Below, piece after piece: positions 1,380 through 35,252 of a stretch of DNA of 64,000 nt (its first letter is position 1; the number at the start of each line of letters is the position of its first letter). The notes beneath the pieces were generated by a model, which ran no database searches, was not told where the DNA came from, and saw only the letters and a program-made list of their open reading frames with translations. Origin of the DNA: a virus. A program made the position numbers and the translations under genes. The DNA lies in IMG/VR virus record IMGVR_UViG_3300042446_001484, positions 16,603-80,602 of that record. One strand, 5' to 3'.

Positions 1380-1400
1380 TGTTGTGATATTTATATTATT

Positions 1401-1844
1401 ATGGGCAAAAAAATCATTTTAACAGAAGAGCAAGTAATGAATTTGGTGGGTAAAATTCATTTAAATGAAGCTAAATTAGCATGTCATTATACCGATTTCA
1501 ACGATTTAGTTGAATATCTAGGCGGAAAATCGTCCAAGAAAATTGGACACAATACTTTTGTTGAACAAATTGATGAGTTTACAATCGGTATAAAATACCA
1601 CAGAACATATATTGTTAAGATGGACCCAACTGGTGTTTTAACTGTTAGCACTGGTGGTTGGGAAACAAGGACAACTAAAGACAGATTAAATCAATTTTTA
1701 GGTTGTCGTAATGTTTACATCTTCCAGAAAAAAGGTGATTGGTTTATTGCCGGCACTAACGAAACATTACCATATCAAGATGGTATGTTAGTACTTTCTG
1801 ATGGGCACGTTTCAGCCCCAGTTAAGGGACGATTAAGTTATTAA
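1401..1844 (+). CDS. phage protein with N-terminal tag and L-N-E/A site
   Basis: A 147-aa protein of unknown function. The first 24 residues form a tag: KKIILTEEQVMNLV followed by HLNEA (L21-N22-E23 before A24). The two minus-strand neighbours carry the same kind of tag on otherwise different proteins. The body (about residues 45-110, with HNTFVEQ, IGIKYHRTYIV, STGGWETRTTKDRLNQF) resembles a small domain often seen in phage hypothetical proteins, ending in an SGGW-T-TTK-R-N signature. It converges with the next gene, the stops overlapping by four bases. If the tag is cleaved by a prohead protease, the body would be an internal virion protein (inference). Confidence 0.8.
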   Translation: MGKKIILTEEQVMNLVGKIHLNEAKLACHYTDFNDLVEYLGGKSSKKIGHNTFVEQIDEFTIGIKYHRTYIVKMDPTGVLTVSTGGWETRTTKDRLNQFLGCRNVYIFQKKGDWFIAGTNETLPYQDGMLVLSDGHVSAPVKGRLSY

Positions 1845-3397
1845 GAACGAGCAGCTAATTGCTTTATTTCATTTGTTCTTAAGTTAATCTTCCAGAAAGA
1901 CCCGTCACGTTTTTTACCAATTAATATTAATTTATCTCTATCCATTGGACTATAGTTTAATGCAATGTAATCTGGTTCAACAATGAATTCGTTTTGGCTG
2001 TTAACCATTCCCCATTCACCACTTTCATCGTCAATTCTAACTAAAGCATTACCTTCACTATCAAATGTTGAGAAGTCAGAGTATTGATTTAAAAAATCAA
2101 CAACATTGGTACATCTTAATATTTTCTTTCTTAATCTAGGTGTGGATAATAAATCAGCTAACTCGCTTTCCCACTTTCTAAAACCTTTATCAATTAATGG
2201 GCAGAACTGTTGGTAAACGTTAATGAACTCCATACTAATTCTTCTAAGAATACCTTTAAACTTACTAGTGGTAGGTATTAATTCTTCAAAACCTTCATCG
2301 GTGTTCATATAATTAATAAGACGCTCACCATATATCTTCATAAATATTTTCTTTGCCTCCTCAGTTGGTAACACGTTTTCACTAGTATCAAATGCATTAA
2401 ATAATGTTTGCATTTCTACATCATATTTTGCAATAAATTCTGGGTCATATTCAGATAAACGCATTAAAGCTAACGCGATAAGGAATGTGTAGTTGTTTAT
2501 ATTTAATTCACCAGAACGAATGGCTGCAATAATCTCCGGCCAAGTGTTTTCATTTTCAATATCATATTTCAATGATGGGTTACTAGCATAAACATCTCTT
2601 CTTTGTTCGTCAGTTAAATCTGCTAAATGGAAGTTATCTTGGTATCTATGAACACCACTAGAACTTAATTTGTTAACTGGATATATTGTGTTCTTTAAGA
2701 AATCAACAATGTATCTATGGTATCTTGATGATGGTTTACTATTAGCTCTCCCATGAAAATCATATAAAATACCTTGATCATAATCTATGGTCACATGTGA
2801 TTCACCATTACCATTTGACGTAATCTCTCTCAATGATAATAAAACACCGTGAGAAGCTCTACCACAATGAGCCATTCTAGCTTTTTCATCTGAACATTCT
2901 CTAGTTCCTAAGTTAGCCCAATAAAAACCAATACCTCTACTATCTCTATAGTCAATAAATATTTCATTGGTTTCGTTGAAATTAATTTGAACTTCCACGC
3001 TTAAACTATTGTGCCAATCAGTTGCACCTTCTAAAGCATTACGGTAGTTGTAGTTTCTTAAATTAACAGTGCCATTAGTACCTCTTAACCAGTCCATTAT
3101 ATATCTGAAATTTGGCATCATCTCTGACCAAAATCTCTCGTTTTGTGGTGAATGTTCGTTTATCCTTCCAATAACCATTGTTCTATGTTCAGCATCATCC
3201 ATCTCAGATAGTTTTGGAACTTGTTGTAACATTTCTTTTAGATATGCGTCAGCAATCCAAACAGATACCTTGTCACTTATACGGTGAAATGCATCTGCCC
3301 ATGCCTGGTTAAAACCAAGTGAACTCATTATGACACTTCTTTTGTCGGCTTCAAGGATTAACCTTTGATATTGTTGTTCTGATAGTATTAATCTCAT
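1841..3397 (-). CDS. tagged phage protein with PcfJ-like motif, function unknown
   Basis: A 518-aa protein. The N-terminus MRLILSEQQYQRLILEA matches the tags of its neighbours and ends in I-L-E/A (E16-A17); YQRLILEA is reminiscent of the T4 internal-protein signal YQEFIAEA. Residues about 175-235 contain RMAHCGR, then SLRE, VTIDYDQG and FHGRANSKPSSRY. This His-Cys / Arg / Thr / GR-N order resembles the C-terminal core of PcfJ-like proteins, two clearer examples of which lie at 11-14.5 kb. No transmembrane segment is evident. The start overlaps the stop of the upstream hydrolase gene (TAATG), so both belong to one transcript. Function not recognised. Confidence 0.8.
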   Translation of the reverse strand: MRLILSEQQYQRLILEADKRSVIMSSLGFNQAWADAFHRISDKVSVWIADAYLKEMLQQVPKLSEMDDAEHRTMVIGRINEHSPQNERFWSEMMPNFRYIMDWLRGTNGTVNLRNYNYRNALEGATDWHNSLSVEVQINFNETNEIFIDYRDSRGIGFYWANLGTRECSDEKARMAHCGRASHGVLLSLREITSNGNGESHVTIDYDQGILYDFHGRANSKPSSRYHRYIVDFLKNTIYPVNKLSSSGVHRYQDNFHLADLTDEQRRDVYASNPSLKYDIENENTWPEIIAAIRSGELNINNYTFLIALALMRLSEYDPEFIAKYDVEMQTLFNAFDTSENVLPTEEAKKIFMKIYGERLINYMNTDEGFEELIPTTSKFKGILRRISMEFINVYQQFCPLIDKGFRKWESELADLLSTPRLRKKILRCTNVVDFLNQYSDFSTFDSEGNALVRIDDESGEWGMVNSQNEFIVEPDYIALNYSPMDRDKLILIGKKRDGSFWKINLRTNEIKQLAARS

Positions 3398-4887
3398 TAT
3401 ACGGCTAATTCTTTGTAAATTGATTCATTTTTCTTTCTTATGCTAGCGATTAAACTTGTAAGTGCTCTTTCGTAGCCGGCGTCCGCATATGCAGATCCTT
3501 CATCGTTTTTAAAGTCCATAATCAAATTACTAGCAGTTTTACCATTCGTCATGTATCTTCTAGCAATTAATGAATAGTAGATATCAATACCTGCTTGGTA
3601 AGTTGGTTGTGGATTACTGATTGTTTTGTTTTGACCAACGTTAAACGGATTCTTGGTTCTATGTGGTTTGTTAGTATAATCGGTAGCTAACCCACCTTCA
3701 ACAGTAATTTGAGCTAACGCTAATTCTGGTGGAACATACTTTCTATATTTCTCCATAGCCATTTTTGCACCGTCAGCCATCATTGTTCCAGTGATTGGTC
3801 CTGATGGGTTTCTTGTTGCAATATAGTTATCGCATATTTTTCTATAAGCACTATAACCTTCTGGTGTTGTTAAATCTAAGTCGGTGAAAACTTCATTGCC
3901 ACCAGTTACTTTTGCAGGGTCAACATGTGTTTTTAATGTTTCTCTTGTAACCAAATTCCCGGCTTGTAATTTACTAATCATGGTCTTAACCATATCAACA
4001 GTAATTATTGCAACAGCGGCACCTCCAACAGCAGCAGATGCAACATCTACAGGTCCATCGCTAGCTTCGCCGTTGTTAGAAACGTGTAAATGGTTATAGT
4101 GATTACCACCAATATATGTCTGCCACAATACGGCTTTTTGATTACCTTTTTCTTTGTTCCAAACGTAGCCCATAGAAACCAAAGCGTCTTTTAATTTGTC
4201 ACCGTCGGTTTTAAATGAACCACAATCATATTCTGGTCCCTTAGCACTACAAACTTTACCATTTAAATAACCAATATCTACCGCAATGTTTTTGGTGTGT
4301 CTACTCACATTTCCGGTTGTTGTTAAATAACTGTGACCAGTATTTGCTGTTGTTACCTTTGCAACCACATTAACACTTGATGCTGCAGTTTGAATATCAT
4401 CTAATAATGCTTGACTAAGATTGTCGCCACTAGATTTTGATGAGAATTTTAAGTTTGAATAGTTTGTTGACCCAGCGTTAATGAACCCTTCGTTCAATGA
4501 AATGTCCGCTATATTATTATCTTCTTTGAATTTATTTACCGCTTCTGCTGTTTCTGGTCCAAATAAACCATCCACACCAAATCTAGGTAATTTATAATCT
4601 AATAAAATTAAACCTATTTGAACCGCTTCAACACTTTCTTGAAACTTAAAACCACCGCGTTGTTGCTGGTCGATTGGTCCACTAATTGCTTCCAATTTGT
4701 TGTAATAACTATCAACATCAACATCTAATTTATCCGCTTTTTTAGGGTCATCAAATAGTTTTTCTACTTGATTTATCTTATCTTTGGTCCAAGATAGTAT
4801 TTTATCCAAAATTTCCTTACCATCATTCTCGTTTAAAGATGATTTAAGGACCTTTTTTAATTGGTTTTCTGATATTATTACTCTCAT
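3397..4887 (-). CDS. tagged multidomain peptidoglycan hydrolase (PG-binding, M15-like peptidase, GH73-like)
   Basis: A 496-aa cell-wall hydrolase. Order of parts: N-terminal tag MRVIISENQLKKVL with L18-N19-E20; a peptidoglycan-binding-type repeat near residues 80-125 (GVDGLFGPETAEAVNKF); an M15/VanY-like peptidase near 170-270 with SRHTKNIAVDIG (His197, Asp204) and YNHLHVS (His266, His268) as probable zinc ligands; a short hydrophobic Ala/Val stretch near 285-300; and a glucosaminidase/lysozyme-like domain from about 385 (LALAQITVEGG with Glu398, then NPFNVG). The domains together cut both peptide and glycan. The shared tag rather than a signal peptide suggests delivery inside the virion instead of holin-dependent lysis (inference). 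Confidence 0.85.
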   Translation of the reverse strand: MRVIISENQLKKVLKSSLNENDGKEILDKILSWTKDKINQVEKLFDDPKKADKLDVDVDSYYNKLEAISGPIDQQQRGGFKFQESVEAVQIGLILLDYKLPRFGVDGLFGPETAEAVNKFKEDNNIADISLNEGFINAGSTNYSNLKFSSKSSGDNLSQALLDDIQTAASSVNVVAKVTTANTGHSYLTTTGNVSRHTKNIAVDIGYLNGKVCSAKGPEYDCGSFKTDGDKLKDALVSMGYVWNKEKGNQKAVLWQTYIGGNHYNHLHVSNNGEASDGPVDVASAAVGGAAVAIITVDMVKTMISKLQAGNLVTRETLKTHVDPAKVTGGNEVFTDLDLTTPEGYSAYRKICDNYIATRNPSGPITGTMMADGAKMAMEKYRKYVPPELALAQITVEGGLATDYTNKPHRTKNPFNVGQNKTISNPQPTYQAGIDIYYSLIARRYMTNGKTASNLIMDFKNDEGSAYADAGYERALTSLIASIRKKNESIYKELAV

Positions 4888-4891
4888 AGTA

Positions 4892-4899
4892 TATAAATA
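4892..4899 (+). promoter_or_regulatory. possible T4-type late promoter (TATAAATA)
   Basis: An exact TATAAATA lies 23 bases before the ATG at 4922 in the divergent gap. It equals the T4 late-promoter core, but the window is AT-rich and the octamer also occurs inside genes (for example near 5352), so this is weak. Confidence 0.25.
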
Positions 4900-4921
4900 T
4901 GACCAAAGATATATATGTTAT

Positions 4922-18721: not shown

Positions 18722-20071
18722 ATGAAGAAGAAGATATTATTATTATCTGATGACATTAGAATGACCTCTGGGATTTCAACAATGTCAAAAGAGATTGTAT
18801 TAGGAACCATTCATAAATTTGATTGGGTACAATTAGGAGCCGCTATATCACATCCAGAAAATGGTAAGATTATAGATTTAAATGATGACATTAGGAAAAG
18901 AACTGGTATTGAAGATGCGTGTGCAAAAATTTACACATATAATGGTTACGGTGATATTGCGATGTTGAGAAGAATTATTGAACTTGAAAAACCAGATGCA
19001 ATACTACATTTTACCGATCCACATTACTGGCAATGGTTATATGATAATGAGCATGAAATTAGACAACAGGTCCCTATTTTATATTACCATGTTTGGGATG
19101 ATTTACCAGATCCTAAATATAATAAAGATTCGTATGAAAGCTGTGACTGGATTGGTTGCATTTCTAAACAAACATACGGTATTGTTAAGCGAGTTGGGGC
19201 TATCAACACTAAAGCAACACAATCACAATTCGAAGATTGGCAAGTATCATATGTTCCACACGGTATTAACCCAAACGTATTTAAGCCGTTGGATGTAATT
19301 GATGAACAACTAACTAAAACAATTTTAGGTGGTAAGGAATATGATTTTATATTATTCTTTAATAATAGAAATATTAGAAGAAAGCAACCATCTGATGTCA
19401 TATATTCATTTAATACTTTTTGTGATAAATTAACGAAAGAGGAAGCTAATAAATGTTTACTATTAATGCATACAACACCAGTAGATAACAATGGAACCGA
19501 TTTATTAGCAGTGGTTGATGCGTTGTGTCCAAACTATGATGTTAGGTTCACTAACACAAAAATAGAACAGGACACATTAAATCAAATATATAATTTATCT
19601 GATTGTACAATTAATATAGCAAATAATGAAGGTTTTGGTTTGGCAACAGCAGAAAGTATTATGGCTGGAACACCTATTATTGTTAGTGTTACCGGTGGTT
19701 TACAAGACCAATGTGGTTTTGACTATACCGCTGATGATTACATCAATATAAAAACCTTACATAAAACAAAGGATGCTGTTCCAGGTAGCTGGGTTGTTCC
19801 TGTTTGGCCGGCGGCTATTAACCTTAACGGATCACCGCTCACGCCATATATTTTTGACGACAGAGTGAATGATGATGATGTTGCTGAAGCAATTTATACG
19901 GTATACAAACAGGGTAAAGAAAAAAGAAAAGAAGTTGGGTTAGAGGGTCGTGAGTTCGCGATACAAAACCTATCATCAAAAATAATGTGTGATGGTATTA
20001 TAGATGGTATTGAAACAACATTAAAAAAATATAAACCAAGAAAAAGATTTGAATTATATAAAGTAATATGA
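18722..20071 (+). CDS. GT4-type glycosyltransferase
   Basis: A 449-aa GT-B fold transferase. The N-terminal Rossmann half has an SDDIRMTSGISTMSKEI start similar to phage and archaeal glycosyltransferases that begin with a GxxT-like loop. The C-terminal donor-binding half has the GT1/GT4 signature NNEGFGLATAESIMAGTPII near residue 302, including the nucleotide-sugar Glu residues. A VPHGIN motif near 177 marks the linker. Donor and acceptor are unknown. Overlaps the next glycosyltransferase start as ATGA. Confidence 0.88.
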   Translation: MKKKILLLSDDIRMTSGISTMSKEIVLGTIHKFDWVQLGAAISHPENGKIIDLNDDIRKRTGIEDACAKIYTYNGYGDIAMLRRIIELEKPDAILHFTDPHYWQWLYDNEHEIRQQVPILYYHVWDDLPDPKYNKDSYESCDWIGCISKQTYGIVKRVGAINTKATQSQFEDWQVSYVPHGINPNVFKPLDVIDEQLTKTILGGKEYDFILFFNNRNIRRKQPSDVIYSFNTFCDKLTKEEANKCLLLMHTTPVDNNGTDLLAVVDALCPNYDVRFTNTKIEQDTLNQIYNLSDCTINIANNEGFGLATAESIMAGTPIIVSVTGGLQDQCGFDYTADDYINIKTLHKTKDAVPGSWVVPVWPAAINLNGSPLTPYIFDDRVNDDDVAEAIYTVYKQGKEKRKEVGLEGREFAIQNLSSKIMCDGIIDGIETTLKKYKPRKRFELYKVI

Positions 20072-21333
20072 GTAAACCATTTTTATTATTTAGAGGGCCG
20101 GTAAAAACCATGAGTGGTTATGGTGCTCATTCAAGAGATATTTTACAAGCATTGTACGAATTAGATTTATTTGATATTAAAATCGATAGTTGTGCTTGGG
20201 GTGTAACGCCAATGACCGCATTAAACAAAAACAAACCATTCCATATTTGGATTGAGAATAACATAATTAATTCAACCAATGCAACACCAGATGTTTATGT
20301 TCAGGTAACAGTTCCGAATGAATTCAACCCAGTCGGCAAATACAACATAGGAATTACGGCGGGTATTGAAACAACCATAGCACCAAAAGATTGGATTGAT
20401 GGTTGCAATAGGATGGATTCAATTATTGTAACCTCTAATTTTTCTAAAGAGGTTTTAGTTTCAACCGTTTATAACGAGAACGAAAATAATACTGGTAAGT
20501 TAGTTAAACAACATAGAATCACAAAAAACATTGAGGTGCTATTTGAGGGTGTTGATACTTCGATTTATAAAAACACATTAACAAAATTAAATAAACCATT
20601 GAAAATCAATGTAAAAGAAGATTTCTGTTACTTGTTTGTTGGGCATTGGTTAAAAGGTTCTACAGGTCAAGATAGAAAGGATGTGGGGATGTTGATAAAA
20701 GTTTTTTGTGAAACATTTAAAGGTGAACACGAAAATAAACCAGCACTAATTCTTAAAACATCATCAACAAATTTCTCAGTTAAAGCTAGAGAAGAGATGC
20801 GTAAGAAAATCGAGGGAGTTGTTGCTGGTATTGAGAATCCACCATCGGTTTATTTAATTTTTGGCGAACTTACGGACGATGAAATGAATAATCTTTATAA
20901 CCATCCAAAAGTTAAATCAATGGTATCGTTAACGAAAGGGGAAGGGTTTGGTAGACCGTTGTTAGAGTTCTCAATGACGGGAAAGCCAATCATAGCATCT
21001 AATTGGTCTGGTCATAGAGATTTCCTACCGATTGATAAAGCGATCTTAATCGGGGGTTCACTAACACCCGTACATCAAAGTGCAGTTGATAGTTACGTCC
21101 TTGCGGATTCAAAGTGGTTCACAGCAAATTATGACGAGTTTTCTCAAGTGATTAAAATAGTACACAAAGATTATGACACTTTCACAGAACGTTCTGAAAA
21201 ATTAAGAGAACAAAACCATACCAATTTTAGTTTTGAGGCGATGAAGAATAAGTTAAAAAATATGGTTGAAAATTTGGTAAGTCAACCAAAAATGACTAAA
21301 TTAGTTCTACCTAAATTAGAAAAAATCAATTGA
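20068..21333 (+). CDS. GT4-like glycosyltransferase
   Basis: A 421-aa GT-B protein. The N-terminus LFRGPVKTMSGYGAHSRDIL has the Gly-rich acceptor loop seen in the 906-aa fusion at 38-40.8 kb (TGYANHARS). The C-terminal half has FEGVDTSIY, FVGHWLKG and KGEGFGRPLLEFSMTGKPII, the EX7E-type donor site. Four bases of overlap with both neighbours. Specific sugar unknown. Confidence 0.85.
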   Translation: MSKPFLLFRGPVKTMSGYGAHSRDILQALYELDLFDIKIDSCAWGVTPMTALNKNKPFHIWIENNIINSTNATPDVYVQVTVPNEFNPVGKYNIGITAGIETTIAPKDWIDGCNRMDSIIVTSNFSKEVLVSTVYNENENNTGKLVKQHRITKNIEVLFEGVDTSIYKNTLTKLNKPLKINVKEDFCYLFVGHWLKGSTGQDRKDVGMLIKVFCETFKGEHENKPALILKTSSTNFSVKAREEMRKKIEGVVAGIENPPSVYLIFGELTDDEMNNLYNHPKVKSMVSLTKGEGFGRPLLEFSMTGKPIIASNWSGHRDFLPIDKAILIGGSLTPVHQSAVDSYVLADSKWFTANYDEFSQVIKIVHKDYDTFTERSEKLREQNHTNFSFEAMKNKLKNMVENLVSQPKMTKLVLPKLEKIN

Positions 21334-21950
21334 AAATAAGTTTTGCCATAACAGTTTGTAATGAGTTAGATGAAATTAAAAGATTAGTACCTTTTCTTTT
21401 AGAGAATAAAAGAATTGAAGATGAGATTGTGATTTTATTTGATGAGAAGAATGGTTCCAAAGAAGTTTTAGATTTCTTATTACCATTTAACATTAAACCA
21501 AATGTTCAAACCTGGAGAAGTATTGATTGGAATAATGACTTTGCCGATTGGAAAAATAAATTAAATGATTACTGTACTGGGGACTATGTGTTTCAATTAG
21601 ATGCAGATGAGATGATTGATGAATATATGGTTAAAAATATTAGTACCATATTAGAAATGAATCCCAAGGTTGACCTTATATTTGTACCAAGAATTAATAC
21701 AGTTCAAGGTTTAACTGAAGAACATATTAAACAATGGGGGTGGCGCTTAGATGAAAACAACTATGTTAACTTTCCTGATTGGCAAGGCAGAGTTTATAGA
21801 AAACATATGTCTTGGTATGGCAGAGTTCATGAGAAGATTATTGGTGGACAGAATTTTTCAACATTACCAACAAATTCTGTATATTGCATCCAACATCACA
21901 AAACAATTTCAAAGCAAGAAAAACAAAATAAGTACTATAATTCAATATGA
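21330..21950 (+). CDS. GT2-family glycosyltransferase, TTG start
   Basis: A 206-aa GT-A transferase. It begins at TTG 21330, inside the stop of the previous gene (TTGA), giving KISFAITVCNELDEI; no nearer ATG lies in this N-terminal strand. The DxD motif is QLDADEMID near residue 90 (cation and nucleotide-sugar binding), and the acceptor side holds GRVYRKHMSWYGRVHEKI. The protein is short for GT2 and lacks membrane segments, so it is a cytoplasmic transferase. TTG starts are rare in this window and may lower its translation. Confidence 0.83.
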   Translation: MKISFAITVCNELDEIKRLVPFLLENKRIEDEIVILFDEKNGSKEVLDFLLPFNIKPNVQTWRSIDWNNDFADWKNKLNDYCTGDYVFQLDADEMIDEYMVKNISTILEMNPKVDLIFVPRINTVQGLTEEHIKQWGWRLDENNYVNFPDWQGRVYRKHMSWYGRVHEKIIGGQNFSTLPTNSVYCIQHHKTISKQEKQNKYYNSI

Positions 21951-22645
21951 AAAAATTTTTAGTTTTAACATCTATCACAGACGGTAAGGATAAACTAATA
22001 GATCCACCTCAAGTTTTTGATAACTGTGATTACATAGCATTTGTTGATAAAGAATACGATGTTAAAGTTTGGGAACAAAGACCGGTTTTAAAATTCTCAT
22101 CCTTAGACAAATACATTAATAGAAGAAATGCTAAAACGTATAAAATATTATCAGCAATAATGTTCCCACAGTATGAATACATAATATGGGAAGATGGTAA
22201 TCATCAATTAAAGATGAACCCACAACTTATAATTGACGAGTACGGAGATGACAATGATATTCTTTTATTTAAACATCCAGATAGGAAGTGTACCTATGAA
22301 GAAATGCAAGCTGTTGCTCAGTGGCAATTAGATTATCGTGAGTTAGTTGAGTTGCAATTTAGATATTATAAGTCGTTAGGGGTACCTGAGAAGTTGGGGT
22401 TGTACGAGATGTCGACATTTATAGTTAAAACAACTAACGCAACAAAAGAATTTCAACTAATGTGGTGGGAACAGATTTCTAAATTCTCGTCTAGGGATCA
22501 AATCAGTTTACCATTTTGCTTATGGAAGATGGGTAATAAACTAAAAAGAAAACGATTAAAGGGATATGCCAATCTTTTCACAATGGAAGGACAGAAAAGT
22601 GGTAATGATTACTTTGACGACCAAGGAAGACATTTAAAGTATTAA
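21947..22645 (+). CDS. DUF616-like glycosyltransferase
   Basis: A 232-aa protein with the DUF616 pattern: FVLDKEYD-like FVDKEYDVKVWE, a RRNAKTYKIL line, then YEYIIWEDGNHQL (acidic D-x-N replacing the classical DxD) and a C-terminal SSRDQISLPFCLWK. DUF616 is the core of the plant TOD1/MUCI70 group and of many bacterial and phage sugar-operon proteins. A weak terminator hairpin follows, so this may end the first glycan transcript. Confidence 0.75.
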   Translation: MKKFLVLTSITDGKDKLIDPPQVFDNCDYIAFVDKEYDVKVWEQRPVLKFSSLDKYINRRNAKTYKILSAIMFPQYEYIIWEDGNHQLKMNPQLIIDEYGDDNDILLFKHPDRKCTYEEMQAVAQWQLDYRELVELQFRYYKSLGVPEKLGLYEMSTFIVKTTNATKEFQLMWWEQISKFSSRDQISLPFCLWKMGNKLKRKRLKGYANLFTMEGQKSGNDYFDDQGRHLKY

Positions 22646-22647
22646 AT

Positions 22648-22675
22648 GGGGGTGCATTTAAACCCCTTTATAATA
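22648..22675 (+). terminator. possible rho-independent terminator
   Basis: GGGGT (22649-22653) pairs with ACCCC (22662-22666) around an eight-base loop, followed by TTTATAAT. The T-run is interrupted, so efficiency is doubtful. Confidence 0.45.
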
Positions 22676-22714
22676 TAAAAAAAAATAATTAAATTGTAAT
22701 AAATAAAATAGTAA

Positions 22715-23899
22715 ATGAAAAAAAGTATACCGTTATTTAAGGTTTTTATGTCAGATACCGTAACTGATAAAGTAGCCGAGGTGCTAAAAAGTGGTTTTAT
22801 CGGTCAGGGTCCAGTTGTTGATGCTTTTGAAGAAAATGTAAAACAATATTTTAGACATGATAAAATATTAACTCTAAATTCAGCAACATCTGCTGAACAT
22901 TTAGCGTTACACTTATTAAAAAAACCCAATAAATTTTTAAAAGGCATTGATGGATACGCACAATACGAATCAAGTTGGCCTGGGATTGAACCTGGTGATG
23001 AAATATTGACAACACCATTAACGTGCACCGCAACTAATTGGCCTATAATTGCAAATGGCTTCAATATTAAATGGGTAGACATCGATCCAAAGACATTAAA
23101 TATGGATTTAGATGACTTAGCAAGAAAAATCACACCAAAAACTAAAGCGATTTTTGTTGTGCATTGGGGTGGTTATCCTATTGATTTAGATAAATTAAAA
23201 GACATACAAGAACAATCATATAGGTTATATGGATTTAAGCCAGCAATTATTGAGGACTGTGCACATGCTATGGGTAGTAAATATAAAAATAAATTTATAG
23301 GTACTCACGGAAATATATGTACCTTTAGTTTACAAGCAATAAAGCACATTACTTCTGGTGATGGTGGTTTATTATTTTTACCACATGATGATCTTTACAA
23401 AAGAGCAAAGTTATTAAGATGGTATGGTATTGATAGAGATGGGAACAGAAAAGATTTTAGATGTGAATCTGACATATCTGAATGGGGTTTTAAATTCCAT
23501 ATGAATGACATAAATGCATCCATAGGTAATGAGAATTTTAAACACGTTGACGAAATTACATCTAAACATAAGGAGAATGCTAAATTTTACGATAAGGAAC
23601 TTAAAAATGTTAGTGGTGTTGAGTTATTAGAAAGACATAAAGACAGAGAATCTTCTTTTTGGATTTATAGTGTTCTTGTTGACAACAGAGATGATTTTCA
23701 AAGATATATGTCTGAAAAGGGTATCGCAACATCTCAGGTTCATGAAAGAAATGATGTTCATTCTTGTGTTAGAGAATATAAAAATATATTACCTAATTTA
23801 GATAACACAATTAAAAAAGTGTCATCAATACCAGTTGGTTGGTGGGTTTCTAAAGAAGAAAGAGAATATATTGTTGATTGTATAAAAAAAGGTTGGTAG
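22715..23899 (+). CDS. DegT/DnrJ/EryC1-family sugar aminotransferase
   Basis: A 394-aa PLP-dependent enzyme that transaminates keto-sugar nucleotides. Landmarks: GFIGQGPVVDAFE at residues 27-39, NSATSAEHLAL (55-65), EDCAHAMGS with Asp181 contacting the PLP ring, and SLQAIKHITSGDGG with the PLP lysine Lys210. Full length for the family. It implies an amino-deoxysugar in the phage glycan. An AT-rich 69-base gap with a weak terminator precedes it, so it could start a second transcript. Confidence 0.93.
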   Translation: MKKSIPLFKVFMSDTVTDKVAEVLKSGFIGQGPVVDAFEENVKQYFRHDKILTLNSATSAEHLALHLLKKPNKFLKGIDGYAQYESSWPGIEPGDEILTTPLTCTATNWPIIANGFNIKWVDIDPKTLNMDLDDLARKITPKTKAIFVVHWGGYPIDLDKLKDIQEQSYRLYGFKPAIIEDCAHAMGSKYKNKFIGTHGNICTFSLQAIKHITSGDGGLLFLPHDDLYKRAKLLRWYGIDRDGNRKDFRCESDISEWGFKFHMNDINASIGNENFKHVDEITSKHKENAKFYDKELKNVSGVELLERHKDRESSFWIYSVLVDNRDDFQRYMSEKGIATSQVHERNDVHSCVREYKNILPNLDNTIKKVSSIPVGWWVSKEEREYIVDCIKKGW

Positions 23900-23900
23900 T

Positions 23901-24458
23901 ATGATTTATAAAAATCCTGAGGTTGAAAGTTCGTATAGTGAACATGATATCGGACAAACATTATATAATTTAGTTTTAGAATTAAAACCAAAGAAAATAA
24001 TTGAATTCGGTACGTTAAATGGTTATTCTGCAATTAGTATGGGAATGGCGTTACAAGAAATTAATAACGGTGGTAAAATAATCTGTTATGATTTGTGGGA
24101 TGCCTATCCATATAAACATTCAACAATTGATAAAACAAAGGAATCGCTTAAAAAGTATTCATTACTTGATTTTATTGAATTAAAACAAATGAATATAAGT
24201 GACTGGGATGTTGAAGATTTTGATTTACTTCATTTAGACATATCAAATGATGGTAACACAATAACAGATGTTTTTAATAAGGTTAAAAATAATCTTGAGA
24301 ATGGTGCAACAATGATATTTGAAGGTGGTTCTATAGAAAGAGATAATATTGAATGGATGAAAAAGTATAATAAAATACCAATAAATTCAATCAAGAATAA
24401 AATAAACTACGAGGTTTTGAATCAAAATTTTCCATCAGTTTCAAAAATATTATTATGA
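23901..24458 (+). CDS. class I SAM-dependent methyltransferase-like protein
   Basis: A 185-aa protein with a Methyltransf_24-like fold. Motif I is IIEFGTLNGYSAISMG (residues 33-48), motif II is IICYDLWD and the post-motif acidic strand is FDLLHLDISND near residue 110. Such proteins often O-methylate sugars in surface-glycan operons. Two bases after the aminotransferase stop and overlapping the next gene by four bases. Confidence 0.75.
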   Translation: MIYKNPEVESSYSEHDIGQTLYNLVLELKPKKIIEFGTLNGYSAISMGMALQEINNGGKIICYDLWDAYPYKHSTIDKTKESLKKYSLLDFIELKQMNISDWDVEDFDLLHLDISNDGNTITDVFNKVKNNLENGATMIFEGGSIERDNIEWMKKYNKIPINSIKNKINYEVLNQNFPSVSKILL

Positions 24459-25222
24459 AAAAAATTGCAGTAGTGTGTTCTGGGTGGCACTACCCATTAC
24501 ATTTTTATGAAAGTATATCTAAACAAATACTTCCAGATGATTGGTCAATGGATATGTTTTGTGTTTCACATAGAGATCCACAATATTCTGAAATAGAAAA
24601 GAAAGATGTGGTTTTAAAAGGTGATAGAAAACATTTAGATGAAAAACTATATTCTAAAATTGCAACAATTGAAGAAATTGAAAATCTAGGTTGGACTTAT
24701 AAAGAATATCCAAACACTGTTGGTGATTGGGGATGTTCCAATCAATGGTTAGAAGAATATGATTATCAAAATTATGAGTTCATGTTATTTACACATGACG
24801 ATAATTTGATCCTTAAAGATGATTGGTTTAAAAAAGTTATTGAACACGAACTATTTGACAAATGGGAAATATGGACAAACAGTGTGGGTGCGCCAATTGG
24901 TATGTTAAGAGGTTCTTGTGAATTTTTTAAAAAATCTATGATAGAGAAAATTGGTGGTAAATTTGATTTATCTATGGTAAAATTAACAAGGGTTGGTGAG
25001 AAATTTGGTAATAGGGATGTACATCAAGTTAGTGACTGGAATAATACTGTTTACCCATTAATGAATTTTATAAATAAAAACCGTATTAAAGTTTTACAGG
25101 GTTCACCATATTATAGAGTTTCAGAATTTTGTGTTGAAGGTGAAAGAGGTTATATATCTGGCACTCAAAACTCAAACATTGATAGCGAAAATAGTGGTTT
25201 AAAAAATTTTAACTTAATCTAA
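24455..25222 (+). CDS. putative glycosyltransferase-like protein
   Basis: A 255-aa protein whose start KKIAVVCSGWHYPLHFYESI and central FMLFTHDDNLI (acidic cluster resembling DxD) suggest a GT-A-like transferase. The context inside the sugar operon supports this, but no family was recognised with confidence. C-terminal half contains GERGYISGTQNSN of unknown meaning. Confidence 0.55.
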   Translation: MKKIAVVCSGWHYPLHFYESISKQILPDDWSMDMFCVSHRDPQYSEIEKKDVVLKGDRKHLDEKLYSKIATIEEIENLGWTYKEYPNTVGDWGCSNQWLEEYDYQNYEFMLFTHDDNLILKDDWFKKVIEHELFDKWEIWTNSVGAPIGMLRGSCEFFKKSMIEKIGGKFDLSMVKLTRVGEKFGNRDVHQVSDWNNTVYPLMNFINKNRIKVLQGSPYYRVSEFCVEGERGYISGTQNSNIDSENSGLKNFNLI

Positions 25223-25228
25223 AAAATA

Positions 25229-26092
25229 ATGAATGTAGTTGTAACTGGTGGTGCCGGCTTTGTTGGCACTAATCTAATTAAAAGATTAATTGCTGAAGGT
25301 CACACAGTGACATCATTCGACAATTATACAACAGGTGTTAAATCAAATCATGTTGAAGGTGCTGAGTACATTGAACATGACATTAAAGAAAGCATCGGTA
25401 AGGCGTATTTTGGTGACACAATAGATGTTGTTTACCATTTAGCCGCTATCGCTAGAATTCAACCATCATTTGAAAGACCTGTAACTTATTTTAACAATAA
25501 CGCTACCGCTACATTTCTATTAGCGCATTTTTGTGGTGAGTATAATATACCATTAATTTATGCAGGTAGTAGTTCACACCATAGTGGTAAATTTAAAAAC
25601 CCTTATACCTTTAGTAAAAGTATTGGTGAAGAAATTATTGCATTGAATCAGGAACATTATAATCTTAAATCATCCATAGCTAGGTTTTATAATGTATACG
25701 GACCACATCACCTTAAAACTGGTGGTTACACAACATTAATCGGTAGATGGGAAAACTTAACAGAAAAGAATGAACCATTAACAATTTATGGTAATGGTAA
25801 AAAGAAAAGAGATTTTACACACGTTGACGATATTGTTGATGGTTTAATTAAAATTAAAGAAAATGAATCTTGGGGGAATACCTTTGAACTTGGTCGAGGT
25901 AAAAATTACTCCATTAACCAAATTGCAGATATGTTTGGCGGTGAGAGAGTATACATGGACGATAAACCTGGTGAAGCACAAAACACACTGTGCGATAGTT
26001 CGTTAGCTAAAAAATTATTGGGGTGGAAACCACAAAAAAATATTGAAGATTACATAAATGAATATAAGTTTCGTATTAGCTGTTTACAATAA
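25229..26092 (+). CDS. NAD-dependent sugar epimerase/dehydratase
   Basis: A 287-aa extended short-chain dehydrogenase. NAD-binding GGAGFVGTNL is at residues 7-16; the catalytic pair is Tyr126 and Lys130 in NPYTFSK with a preceding Ser in YAGSSSHHSG; YNVYGPHH and RDFTHVDDIVDG follow as in UDP-glucose 4-epimerase and dTDP-glucose dehydratase relatives. It probably interconverts nucleotide sugars for the neighbouring transferases. The last 35 bases overlap the next gene. Confidence 0.92.
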   Translation: MNVVVTGGAGFVGTNLIKRLIAEGHTVTSFDNYTTGVKSNHVEGAEYIEHDIKESIGKAYFGDTIDVVYHLAAIARIQPSFERPVTYFNNNATATFLLAHFCGEYNIPLIYAGSSSHHSGKFKNPYTFSKSIGEEIIALNQEHYNLKSSIARFYNVYGPHHLKTGGYTTLIGRWENLTEKNEPLTIYGNGKKKRDFTHVDDIVDGLIKIKENESWGNTFELGRGKNYSINQIADMFGGERVYMDDKPGEAQNTLCDSSLAKKLLGWKPQKNIEDYINEYKFRISCLQ

Positions 26093-27161
26093 CCTATCTA
26101 TAACTAAAGAATGTTATAAATACTTAAGGGAGTTGTATCCAACAACACCATTAGTGATTAGTAGTGGTGGTTCTAATGATGGTACCAAAGAATGGTTAGA
26201 GTCGTTAATGGATGAAAATTTGTCATTTATTCACGACGATGATAAGTTACCATTCTCCGATACATATAACGCCGGAATCAAGCTGGTAGACACCGAGAAA
26301 TTGGTTCTAATCCATAATGATATGGTTATTGGTAATGGTTTTTTAGAAGCATTAGAAGAAGATTTAGATGAAAAGACATTATTATGTTACACGACTGTTG
26401 AGCCCCCGATATTTAAAGGTCATATTAGGCCGGGGAAAGAAATCATGGACCTCGGCTCATCATTTCTTGATTTTAGGTACGATTTATTTAATCAATATCT
26501 GGAACAAAGAAACCGTGAGAGCAAGATTGTTAGCGGTGGTACATTCTTTATGAGTGGATATAAAAAATTATTCGAGGATGTTGGACACTTCGATGGATTT
26601 AGTTTTTTCCCAGCGTTTTGTGAAGATGATGATTTTATTATCAGAACCAAACTAAAGGGTTATGATTTAAAGACGACTAATAGAGCGGTTGTTTATCATT
26701 TTGTTAGTCAAACATCTAGATTCAGCGAAGAATTTAAACACAATAGAATTCAAATCGAAATGAATTCTAATAGAAATTTTGTGAGGAAATGGGGATTACC
26801 TATTTCGATGTTTAATGAAATTAGATATTGGGAAGATTCTGTTTTTGTATTTAAAACATTCTCAATGGGGTTAACAACTAGAAATAGAAATCGCTTATTT
26901 GAGATAGAGCCATTCTTCGACAAAATTGATTTGGGTGAGATACCAGAAGATTATATTGAAGTTCAACAGAAGACAACTAATTATGATTTAAGAAGTAAAT
27001 TCTTGTTCGCTGAAACTGTTGATGTTATGGTATATGAAGAAGGTGAATTTACACCAGAAGATATTATGACACTTTATCGTTTAAGATTAAGTATACCACA
27101 ATATGATCCGGGTGAATATCGTACTGGTAATATGAAAATTGAGATTAAGAGAAAAGTTTAA
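26058..27161 (+). CDS. GT2-family glycosyltransferase
   Basis: A 367-aa protein starting MNISFVLAVYNNLSITKECYKYL, the standard GT2 first strand. Other marks are SSGGSNDGTKEWLESL, the DxD-position LIHNDMVIGN near residue 87, and FEDVGHFDGFSFFPAFCEDDDFIIRTKLKGY (given as key FCEDDDF) around 190, the acceptor ED motif. The C-terminal 120 residues are extra. The 35-base overlap with the epimerase is longer than typical here. Last gene of the plus-strand block. Confidence 0.88.
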   Translation: MNISFVLAVYNNLSITKECYKYLRELYPTTPLVISSGGSNDGTKEWLESLMDENLSFIHDDDKLPFSDTYNAGIKLVDTEKLVLIHNDMVIGNGFLEALEEDLDEKTLLCYTTVEPPIFKGHIRPGKEIMDLGSSFLDFRYDLFNQYLEQRNRESKIVSGGTFFMSGYKKLFEDVGHFDGFSFFPAFCEDDDFIIRTKLKGYDLKTTNRAVVYHFVSQTSRFSEEFKHNRIQIEMNSNRNFVRKWGLPISMFNEIRYWEDSVFVFKTFSMGLTTRNRNRLFEIEPFFDKIDLGEIPEDYIEVQQKTTNYDLRSKFLFAETVDVMVYEEGEFTPEDIMTLYRLRLSIPQYDPGEYRTGNMKIEIKRKV

Positions 27162-31385: not shown

Positions 31386-34300
31386 TTATTCTGGTCGCTT
31401 TGGTGTTGCATCTTCTGGTTTTACTTCTTGCAACATAAATTTATATACTTTATTTCTTTTATTATTATATAAGAACAAATCATCCTCACCCTCAACAATT
31501 GTGTAATCACCAATACCGTTTGATAACGATAAATCCGATGTAAATAATGTGTTCCATCTTGCTCCAGATGAACCTAAGTTTAACGTACCATTACTTAATG
31601 GTAATATACTTCCACCTGATGTGAATGTACCTGCGATTTGCATATTTCCATTTCCTACGTTTAACGCGGCAATTGGTGTTACTCCACTTTGTCCCCAAGT
31701 GAAACCTCTTGTCGAACTATTACTATCTATATTACACTTTATGGAGTAATCTGTAACAGGGCCATAATAATATTCAGATGAACTACCCATATGAATTTTA
31801 TACGTGTCGGAACCTCCCCAAAATTTTAATCCGTTTCCATTACCCGTTGATACACCATAAGATGCGTTTAAATTACTAGCGTTTGGTGCACTACCCGCAG
31901 TAGTTGCGCTTGTAGCACTTGTTGCAAATGATACGGACTGAGAGCCAATGTTAGCTGTTGTAATTGCATCTGTAATTCCATATCCACTTATTGTTGTTGG
32001 TTTTGATGAAACGTTTGCAAAAGATATACCTGTGATGTAAGCACTATTATTTGTGAACTGTGAAATGTTCATTGATGTTAAAGCGCCCGCAGTGGTTGCA
32101 GTGGTTGCGTTTCCGGATAGTGCTCCTGAGAATGTTGGGGCTGTAATTGTACCTGGAAATGATGTGTTACCACTACCATCTAGTAATGTTGCAGTCCTAG
32201 TTATACTACTAAACACACCCGTGTATTGTCTAACATATATTGGTTCGGTACCATCATCGGAAGTTGCTATTTCAACATAACCGGCATTTGTTGCTGTACC
32301 ACCAACTCTTAATCTGAAATAATCGTTATCAGCAATTGATGCATACAATAAGTCACCAACGTTAGCACCTGTTAATACTGTGCTAACTGAACCACCACCT
32401 GTAATTGTTAAACCACCAAATGTTGGTGAGTTACTTGTTCCTAAATTTTGATTTATATTAAAACTATTAGCAAAAGAAGTACCTGACGTACCAGAAGACC
32501 CGCTAGAACCAGAACTTCCTGAAGACCCAGATGTTCCACTTGAACCAGAACTCCCCGAACTACCACTGGTTCCACTTGAACCACTAGACCCTGAAGATCC
32601 ACTTGTTCCTGAACTTCCGCTAGAACCAGAAGAACCTGAAGTTCCACTAGAACCGCTAGAACCTGATGAACCCGACGTACCACTAGATCCGTTAGAACCC
32701 GATGTTCCACTAGATCCAGAAGAACCTGAAGACCCACTTGTTCCTGAGCTTCCTGAAGTACCCGAAGTACCACTAGAACCTGAAGACCCAGACGTTCCGC
32801 TTGACCCTGAACTACCTGAAGAACCTGATGTTCCACTAGAACCATTAGAACCTGATGTTCCCGAACTTCCACTTGTTCCGGATGAACCTGAACTACCTGA
32901 AGAACCTGAGGTCCCACTTGAACCAGAACTTCCGGATGAACCAGATGTTCCACTAGAACCTGAAGAACCTGATGTTCCACTAGAACCATTAGAACCCGAT
33001 GTTCCTGACGTGCCAGATGAACCATTAGATCCCGATGTTCCGCTAGACCCTGAAGACCCTGACGTGCCAGATGAACCATTAGATCCTGAACTACCACTTG
33101 TACCACTTGTTCCTGATGAACCTGACGTACCAGACGAACCATTAGATCCTGATGTTCCACTAGAACCCGATGTGCCAGAGGTACCACTAGTTCCAGAAGT
33201 ACCTGATGAACCAGCACCAACCAGGTTGGTACCAACACCTGCCGCTAAACTTGAGATATCAATATATGCACCTCTCGCAGTTCCACCTTGTTCAAAAAAT
33301 CTTAATCTATTTTGCCAAATATCTACTGTAACTCCCTCACCAACAAGTGTTGTATTAGTTAACGCTTTCCCTAATAAAATTTCACCACCTTCATCACCAC
33401 CAGTAGCATTTACAACTAATTTATTACCACCAGTAACAATTAATGAACCAGTGATTTCTGTATTTGAATTTATCGAAACGGTTGTACCGTTGTCTGTTAT
33501 ATTTGAATCATTTAAGTGGTCTCCGCCCGCTGACTTTGCAACTCTACCACTAGTTAATGTTAATTCACTACCTAGTGAACCAGAACTTCTAGGACCTGAC
33601 AATAATACACCGCCACCATAACCCGCCTCACTTGAGTTTTGATAAATCCATCTATTGTTAACAGAATCCCAAAGAATTGAACCAGTAGCAATACCAACCG
33701 ATCCTGAATCATGAACTTCTAGTCCACCAAATCTAGATCCAGGGCTAGCAGTGTTTACTGTGATAATATTGTCTTCAACTCTTAATTGAGATGATGTTAC
33801 GTATGTTATTGAGGATGAACCTAATACTGTAAAATTGTTTGTCACAATTAAGGAACCAGATATTGTTTCGTTACCAACAACGGTTAAAAGTGAACCATCA
33901 AATCTTAAATTATTTTCCGCAGTTACGTTTGGTGAGGAACCATTAAGTGTTAGAACACCATTGTCTTGTGTTCCGCTCATTGTTACGGTTCCGCTAGATC
34001 CACTAGATCCACTAGAACCTGAGGTTCCTGATGTCCCCGCTGTACCACTAGACCCTGAACTTCCGGATGTTCCTGAACTTCCGCTTGAACCTGATGTACC
34101 GCTTGACCCTGAAGACCCAGATGTTCCACTAGAACCTGATGAACCTGAAGTTCCTGATGAACCAGATGTTCCGCTTGTTCCTGAAGTACCTGACGACCCG
34201 TTAGAACCTGATGTTCCTGATGAACCAGAACTACCGCTCGTTCCACTAGAACCTGATGAACCTGAAGTTCCTGATGAACCAGATGTTCCGCTTGTTCCTG

Positions 34301-35252
34301 AAGTACCTGACGACCCGTTAGAACCAGAAGATCCCGATGTACCACTTGTACCAGCGGTTCCGCTAGATCCACTAGAACCTGATGTTCCAGAACTACCACT
34401 AGAACCTGAGGTTCCTGAAGTTCCAGCGGTTCCTGAAGAACCACTACTTCCACTAGTACCAGAACTACCACTTGAACCTGATGTTCCTGAAGAACCAGAT
34501 GTTCCTGAAGAACCGCTACTTCCACTAGTACCTGACGTACCCGAACTTCCAGATGAACCCGAAGAACCACTCGTGCCCGAACTACCATTTGATCCTGAGG
34601 TTCCACTAGTGCCTGAGGTACCGCTTGATCCCGATGTTCCACTAGAACCAGAACTTCCGGATGAACCAGATGTTCCACTTGTACCTGATGACCCAGAACT
34701 TCCGCTGGTTCCAGACGTACCCGAACTTCCCGATGAACCTGAGGTTCCTGATGTGCCAGATGTACCTGAAGAACCACTCGTACCTGACGTTCCGCTAGAA
34801 CCAGAACTTCCACTTGATCCCGATGTTCCACTTGATCCTGAACTTCCTGAGGTTCCGCTAGTTCCACTAGTACCTGATGTTCCACTTGAACCTGAAGACC
34901 CTGAGGTTCCAGATGTACCTGAGGTTCCTGATGTACCAGATGTACCTGAGGTCGCGGCATTAAAAGATGTTCCACTTATAATTAAATCACCGGTTATAAT
35001 TAATGAACCAGTAATTTCTGAATTTGTATTAATTCTTAAACCATCTGTATTTGAAATTGATGCTGTTGATGCACCGTCAGCTATTCGTGTTAAATTAAGT
35101 CCAACAACACCACCCGCTGGGATGTTTGTGATATTAGAGCCATCACCACTAAAGGAACCACTAATTGTTCCTAAAACTTTTAAATCACCCGAAATTTCGG
35201 CTGAACTTGATACGGATAATGATCCCGATATGTGTGCGTCAAATATATTCAT
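31386..35252 (-). CDS. collagen-like GTSGSSG-repeat tail fibre
   Basis: A 1288-aa structural protein. Residues 1-100 form an attachment domain with ISGSLSVSSSAEISGDL-type repeats; 101-422 is a first Gly-x-y tract made almost only of GTS and GSS triplets with occasional GSN and GTA; 423-680 is a beta-rich spacer with SGSLIVTN-type strands; 681-925 is a second tract of the same kind; 926-1288 is a fibre tip ending in TIVEGEDDLFLYN and KVYKFMLQEVKPED. The tracts are unusually Ser/Thr-rich and lack Pro, so they may be stabilised by glycosylation; a TibC-like O-heptosyltransferase gene lies 45 bases away, upstream in transcription order. Confidence 0.9.
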   Translation of the reverse strand: MNIFDAHISGSLSVSSSAEISGDLKVLGTISGSFSGDGSNITNIPAGGVVGLNLTRIADGASTASISNTDGLRINTNSEITGSLIITGDLIISGTSFNAATSGTSGTSGTSGTSGTSGSSGSSGTSGTSGTSGTSGSSGSSGTSGSSGSSGSSGTSGTSGSSGTSGTSGTSGSSGSSGTSGTSGSSGSSGTSGTSGSSGSSGSSGTSGSSGTSGTSGTSGSNGSSGTSGSSGSSGSSGTSGTSGSSGSSGTSGSSGTSGSSGSSGTSGSSGSSGTAGTSGTSGSSGSSGTSGSSGSSGTAGTSGTSGSSGSNGSSGTSGTSGTSGSSGTSGSSGSSGTSGSSGSSGTSGSNGSSGTSGTSGTSGSSGTSGSSGSSGTSGSSGSSGTSGSSGSSGTSGSSGSSGTAGTSGTSGSSGSSGSSGTVTMSGTQDNGVLTLNGSSPNVTAENNLRFDGSLLTVVGNETISGSLIVTNNFTVLGSSSITYVTSSQLRVEDNIITVNTASPGSRFGGLEVHDSGSVGIATGSILWDSVNNRWIYQNSSEAGYGGGVLLSGPRSSGSLGSELTLTSGRVAKSAGGDHLNDSNITDNGTTVSINSNTEITGSLIVTGGNKLVVNATGGDEGGEILLGKALTNTTLVGEGVTVDIWQNRLRFFEQGGTARGAYIDISSLAAGVGTNLVGAGSSGTSGTSGTSGTSGSSGTSGSNGSSGTSGSSGTSGTSGSSGSNGSSGTSGSSGSSGTSGSNGSSGTSGTSGSNGSSGTSGSSGSSGTSGSSGSSGSSGTSGSSGSSGSSGTSGSSGTSGSNGSSGTSGSSGSSGSSGTSGSSGSSGTSGTSGSSGTSGSSGSSGSSGTSGSNGSSGTSGSSGSSGSSGTSGSSGSSGSSGTSGSSGSSGSSGTSGSSGSSGSSGTSGSSGSSGSSGSSGTSGTSFANSFNINQNLGTSNSPTFGGLTITGGGSVSTVLTGANVGDLLYASIADNDYFRLRVGGTATNAGYVEIATSDDGTEPIYVRQYTGVFSSITRTATLLDGSGNTSFPGTITAPTFSGALSGNATTATTAGALTSMNISQFTNNSAYITGISFANVSSKPTTISGYGITDAITTANIGSQSVSFATSATSATTAGSAPNASNLNASYGVSTGNGNGLKFWGGSDTYKIHMGSSSEYYYGPVTDYSIKCNIDSNSSTRGFTWGQSGVTPIAALNVGNGNMQIAGTFTSGGSILPLSNGTLNLGSSGARWNTLFTSDLSLSNGIGDYTIVEGEDDLFLYNNKRNKVYKFMLQEVKPEDATPKRPE
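32478..33212 (-). repeat. collagen-like Gly-Ser/Thr-Ser triplet tract 2
   Basis: 735 bases encoding 245 residues of G-(T/S/N)-S triplets. Codons for Gly, Ser and Thr vary strongly from repeat to repeat, so the DNA is not a perfect tandem array although the protein is near-uniform. Confidence 0.92.
33987..34952 (-). repeat. collagen-like Gly-Ser/Thr-Ser triplet tract 1
   Basis: 966 bases encoding 322 residues (101-422 of the fibre) of G-(T/S/N/A)-S triplets, again with varied synonymous codons. Longer sub-blocks recur, for example the stretches around 34141-34200 and 34261-34320, showing recent internal duplication. Confidence 0.92.

Follow-up and report, generated by a model that had tools for sequence, protein, structure and literature searches.

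Why should three neighbouring proteins that are otherwise unlike each other begin with the same short sequence? The question is raised by a window of 64,000 nucleotides, bases 16603-80602 of the 80,602-base IMG/VR virus record IMGVR_UViG_3300042446_001484 (L001), in which three adjacent ORFs had been predicted to share an N-terminal tag ending in an L-x-E site (Table 1). The ORFs, the tag and the residue numbers of the three sites were all as predicted, and the same tag was found on two other proteins of the 80.6 kb record. It reads M-[K/R]-x-I-[I/L]-[S/T]-E-x-Q and runs through a helix to L/I-x-E. The bodies behind it are indeed unrelated, matching different families or none. In our opinion, such tags are very likely removable propeptides that target proteins to the prohead and are cut off by a gp21-type protease, comparable to the T4 capsid-targeting sequence (CTS) in the way they work and different from it in sequence.

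Table 1. Tagged proteins, their tags and upstream elements (window positions, except where L001 positions of the whole record are given)
Feature	Position	Strand	Basis or remark
Tagged protein 1, 147 aa	1401..1844	+	ORF; tag, then Kyano_Gp96-like domain (residues 50-129), Pfam PF23790, E 1.1e-8
Protein 1 tag, residues 1-23, MGKKIILTEEQVMNLVGKIHLNE, predicted cut before A24	1401..1469	+	LNE at 21-23
Tagged protein 2, 518 aa, no assigned function	1841..3397	-	ORF
Protein 2 tag, residues 1-16, MRLILSEQQYQRLILE, predicted cut before A17	3350..3397	-	ILE at 14-16, core YQRLILE
Tagged protein 3, 496 aa, probable peptidoglycan hydrolase	3397..4887	-	PG_binding_1 PF01471, E 7.1e-5; M15-type zinc motif
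Protein 3 tag, residues 1-20, MRVIISENQLKKVLKSSLNE, predicted cut before N21	4828..4887	-	LNE at 18-20
Promoter-like element GATATTTATA before protein 1	1386..1395	+	Motif upstream of tagged genes
Promoter-like element ATATTTATA before protein 3 and overlapping protein 2	4892..4900	-	Motif upstream of tagged genes
Extra tagged protein left of window, start MKYIISEDQYKKIAQSISE	L001 4071-4328	-	In the 16.6 kb outside the window
Extra tagged protein left of window, start MKLIITESQLSLIQESSYNGLFE	L001 12777-13037	-	In the 16.6 kb outside the window

Protein 3 is probably a cell-wall hydrolase, as judged from its sequence. It was originally described as having three domains; Pfam recovers PG_binding_1 and the M15-type zinc motif can be recognized by eye (SRHTKNIAVDI at residue 195, HYNHLHVS at 263), but a third domain was not detected by Pfam. 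Protein 2 has a distant relative in Salicola phage SCTP-2 (25.8% over residues 44-277, tblastn). For these two larger proteins, no sequence relatives were found in the PDB, and a pattern search for relatives returned only 100% identical contigs. AlphaFold models of proteins 3 and 1 were set aside (mean pLDDT 35.3 and 36.6, respectively). The body of protein 1 occurs without a tag in T7-like Ghunavirus phages (L611, L614), where it is the leftmost early gene. Given this position as first early gene near the left end, the Kyano_Gp96-like body may serve a function needed at once after DNA entry.

The original prediction called for a search for the same start in this genome and in related phages, and such starts do recur on many unrelated proteins. 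IMG/VR was scanned with DNA patterns of the tag starts, leaving the tag end out of the patterns; in unannotated records, gene starts are guesses from the longest ORF. The scans gave at least 471 tagged proteins of at least 60 aa, belonging to at least 212 body families, and at least three classes of tags, 16-24 residues long, which start with MKKIIITESQLKKI... (class A), MKKIIRLTESDLTRIVKRVINE (class B) and MNLQENIQRIKEMMGVINE (class C). Class B is probably related to class A, and class C is unrelated to them. A/B pairs align from residue 1, consistent with classes A and B being probably variants of one tag. A pattern-free comparison revealed further repeated starts, also ending in (L/I)xE, in two relatives of the window's phage. 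One is G004, a 287-kb genome that has 19 proteins in common with the window's record (identity up to 75%) and in which the start is MGKRFTITESEKNEIRKKYNLINE; about 18-20 of its genes are tagged, clustering at about 124-140 kb and nearly all pointing in the same direction. The other is the cultured Flavobacterium phage vB_FspM_immuto_2-6A (immuto), with 15 proteins related to the window's record and the starts MENFDLKKFLVENKLTTNSKILKE and MKKQILSEQFKRMQFLAGIITE on several proteins; these end like the window's tags but differ from them in sequence. A tblastn search with a 22-residue consensus tag gave no match, the query being too short for the E-value limit. Overall, the tags are carried by large, mostly uncultivated T4-like phages, on many otherwise unrelated proteins. 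No description of the tag strings, or of such tags in these phages, was found in the open-access papers searched; subscription papers and preprints were outside this search.

How do the tags end? When each family is represented only once in a class, (L/I)xE with its E at residues 14-26 is present in 90% of class A (n=40), 95% of class B (n=124) and 82% of class C (n=49), compared with 4-15% in equal windows farther downstream and 24-38% in shuffles. The L-x-E rule proposed from three proteins is thus obeyed by 82-95% of independent tagged proteins. In the non-redundant classes A, B and C, conservation ends after the terminal Glu, and when 130 unrelated tagged proteins are aligned, no column except E21 is nearly invariant. 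Many tags contain an earlier second (L/I)xE. Starts with two sites exceed random internal stretches in G004 (26 vs 11.0, maximum 20 in 300 draws) and in G006 (23 vs 7.6, maximum 16); in immuto they are not clearly above random internal stretches (11 vs 6.9, maximum 15). The early site of classes A-C is partly forced by the search pattern.

The same residue marks the point at which tags are replaced by one another. The bodies of a class B protein (L368) and a class C protein (L416) are 85% identical, starting directly after VINE, and an exchange between classes B and C at Glu is seen on a second body too. In G004, a relative of the window's hydrolase, protein 3, is 43% identical and bears another tag (start MKKSLIEELERIHTLTYGKELLSE), and homology starts just past L-x-E in both. 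According to these alignments, tags are exchanged on the same body at the terminal Glu. A/B pairs, whose two tags are probably forms of a single one, were not counted as exchanges.

In T4, the internal proteins ipII and ipIII start with MKTYQEFIAE followed by A, and gp24 starts with MAKINELLRE followed by S. The cuts fall directly behind these sequences (MKTYQEFIAE/A, MAKINELLRE/S). T4 internal proteins are highly diverse defence proteins that have only a conserved CTS in common (PMC3012670), and T4 propeptides are 10-20 residues long (PMC5694885). Like the CTS of the internal proteins and Alt, which is cut by gp21, the tags are short, presumably removable N-terminal extensions on otherwise diverse proteins; they end in (L/I)-x-E, occur in phages with gp21, gp22 and gp23, and are attached to proteins of early-effector type. 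Unlike the single T4 class, however, they fall into several unrelated classes, often have two (L/I)xE sites, and are found on tens of genes in one genome (about 18-20 in G004) and on at least 212 body families in this sample, without overall similarity to MKTYQEFIAE. Only an h-x-x-h-[IL]-x-E core is common to both, in 20%, 86% and 49% of classes A, B and C, respectively, and in one window protein. YQRLILE had been considered close to YQEFIAE of T4; this is true of the core of that one protein, but not of the tag as a whole. As the tags are not close to the T4 sequence, their equivalence with the T4 CTS rests on architecture and context: they may work like the CTS by analogy, while homology remains unproven. 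Inner-head proteins of the giant Salmonella phage SPN3US and of phiKZ also have N-terminal propeptides, removed by a prohead protease and proposed to direct proteins to the prohead. Those propeptides, however, mostly exceed 100 residues, have another cleavage motif and another protease lineage, and are not a short tag common to hundreds of families.

The major capsid protein gp23 of tag-bearing phages offers a second comparison. In all 22 phages, its inferred maturation site is (L/I/V)xE with A, S or G as the next residue; in 17 of the 22 it is INE-A or INE-S, mostly INE/A. In contrast, the residue after the predicted cut in the tags is often Q, S, E or N. This difference, and the fact that no cutting has been observed, are consistent with a tag that targets its protein to the prohead core but stays on it, (L/I)-x-E being a docking surface by which cargo, scaffold and capsid bind the same partner. 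Against such a permanent tag, conservation and tag exchange both stop exactly at Glu, as would be expected of a cut more than of a binding patch, and it is gp21 that removes the T4 propeptides of the internal proteins and gp24. Although it ranks marginally above the other alternatives, we find a permanent tag very unlikely.

If the tags are cut by a gp21-type protease, this enzyme should be encoded by phages carrying them. PF03420 (gp21) and PF07068 (gp23) matched the same 8 of 40 tag-bearing records, and gp21 was found in 29 of 46 records of a second set. In 13 of the 14 tagged records of at least 250 kb, both T4-type gp21 and gp23 are encoded, and immuto has both as well. In the second set, 13 tagged records of at least 100 kb are without gp21; gp23 is missing from every one of them too, as one would expect if they are fragments. 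In a small control of AT-rich contigs, gp21 was encoded by 3 of the 7 that measure at least 100 kb and by neither of 2 that reach at least 250 kb, and none of 20 carried the class B start. The protease sought by the original prediction is therefore present in tag-bearing phages, including G004, but absent from the window's own 80.6 kb record, a fragment without head module in which PF03420 was unmatched (the control genomes held no positive either). That the window's phage itself encodes gp21 is an inference.

In tag-bearing phages, the gp23 gene lies beside gp21, and tagged genes are found in the same neighbourhood: between gp20 and gp21 in G052, between gp21 and gp22 in G048, and adjoining gp21 in G041, G074 and G076. 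The gp21 ORFs of the last two (L610 and L607 for G074 and G076, respectively) are 609 aa long and match PF03420 in two segments separated by about 0.9 kb, which would suit an intein or another insertion within the protease. A promoter-like element accompanies the tagged genes. In the window's record, (G)ATATTTAT stands 11-13 bp before the ATG of 4 of 5 tagged genes, compared with 9 of 105 genes overall; the tagged gene without it comes second in a gene pair overlapping at base 3397. Because these data are also where the motif was first noticed, the p-value for the window lacks independence. In G004 (L173-L187), TATTTATA is found no more than 60 bp upstream of 53 genes, including head and tail genes, with 3.9 expected. 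The looser TATTTAT precedes 13 of 20 tagged genes and 87 of 342 overall (p = 1.4e-4), its carriers including genes read as gp17, gp20, gp21 and gp22 and also tail genes. We infer that this element is possibly the late promoter of the lineage.

The proteins behind the tags are of several kinds. Among 130 tagged representatives, Pfam identified cell-wall hydrolases, ART-PolyVal ADP-ribosyltransferases, the ArdC N-terminal domain, S-adenosylmethionine lyase, shikimate-kinase and AAA-type domains, an HD domain and an acetyltransferase, and PHROGs identified endolysins and one anti-restriction protein. Anti-restriction proteins, ADP-ribosyltransferases and cell-wall hydrolases are of the injected-effector type, although injection is inferred here without virion data. 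By eye only, annexin-like repeats (GLGTDE) can be seen in two class B-tagged proteins (L294:1596-2027 and L275:1450-1887). In G004, tag-like starts are also present on a tRNA nucleotidyltransferase, an HD protein and a pterin dehydratase-like protein. The last lacks the terminal L-x-E, and a class C-tagged protein with a similar-looking body exists; pterin dehydratases may simply start in a way similar to the tag, and we cannot decide between chance and tag in this case. Tags on clearly cytoplasmic proteins were to count against packaging. The tRNA nucleotidyltransferase and the HD protein are indeed tagged, but they have not been proven to be non-virion proteins and at present are merely unexpected cargo.

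Such enzymes could also be explained if the tag had nothing to do with the head and instead served docking or localisation elsewhere, such as to a replication or transcription complex or to another phage-made compartment. That would leave unexplained why the tag ends in a gp21-type site as in gp23, why tagged genes lie in the head module, and why their promoter-like motif is common with structural genes; moreover, the repeated starts found in immuto are not on annotated replication enzymes. A non-head signal thus appears very unlikely. It is also conceivable that the unit being spread by recombination is a DNA-level gene-start cassette, comprising promoter and start codon region, and that the likeness of the peptides is a by-product. 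The common upstream motif would agree with this, as would the near-constancy of some class C codons (at residue 7, 48 of 49 use ATA). However, synonymous codon use in classes A and B mostly varies as much as the background does, which indicates selection on the peptide in these classes (class C is less clear); the unrelated classes all end in (L/I)xE, and the window's tags lie on opposite strands. We therefore give this cassette little credence, as a highly improbable source of the likeness. Finally, T/S-E-x-x-L also caps ordinary helices, as perhaps at the start of pterin dehydratases, but chance likeness can practically be excluded because the core string [IVL][ILTV][ST]E.Q occurs at 5 of 105 protein starts and only twice elsewhere in the 25,811 residues of the 80.6 kb record, and because, among the matches listed, an ORF of at least 50 aa is opened by 149 of 157 in class A, 183 of 184 in class B and 143 of 150 in class C, with zero matches for a reversed-pattern control.

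With removable prohead-targeting propeptides, the following course of events may be proposed. Late in infection, a timing that we infer, tagged proteins would be made alongside head and tail proteins. Each would presumably dock, through its tag's amphipathic helix, on the prohead core formed by a gp22-like scaffold, and the docked protein would be enclosed while the gp23 shell forms. A gp21-like protease, whose cut in gp23 follows an (L/I)-x-E of this kind, would then cut the tag after its terminal Glu, and the cargo freed inside the head could be injected along with the DNA. With interchangeable tag classes, almost any protein might become cargo by gaining a tag. Packaging of the tagged proteins in the capsid, as first proposed, is supported, but neither cleavage nor packaging has been demonstrated. 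The weak points of this scheme are the absence of virion or peptide data, the lack of gp21 in the window's fragment, a residue after the cut unlike that of gp23, and the surprising enzymes among the cargo.

A broader possibility, which we think has somewhat more in its favour than against it, is that the tags form an open, modular packaging code, in which interchangeable propeptide classes are used on tens of genes per genome and the whole injected set can be read from N-termini. That set would then span hundreds of families, among them enzymes so far unsuspected as virion cargo. Host defences are first met by the proteins that enter with the phage DNA, and these are known for few phages. Should the tags be packaging signals, it would become possible to predict from sequence what a large group of environmental T4-like phages inject, and for hundreds of hypothetical proteins there would be a role to test, whether as early effectors, anti-restriction factors or entry enzymes. 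The capsid-targeting principle of T4 would then be carried by several unrelated, exchangeable peptides.

Apart from the tagged genes, the window contains large sugar-modification gene clusters (18722-27161 and 31386-63292), in which several genes are 44-63% identical to those of phage immuto, and it encodes a collagen-repeat tail-fibre-like protein of 1288 aa at 31386-35252.
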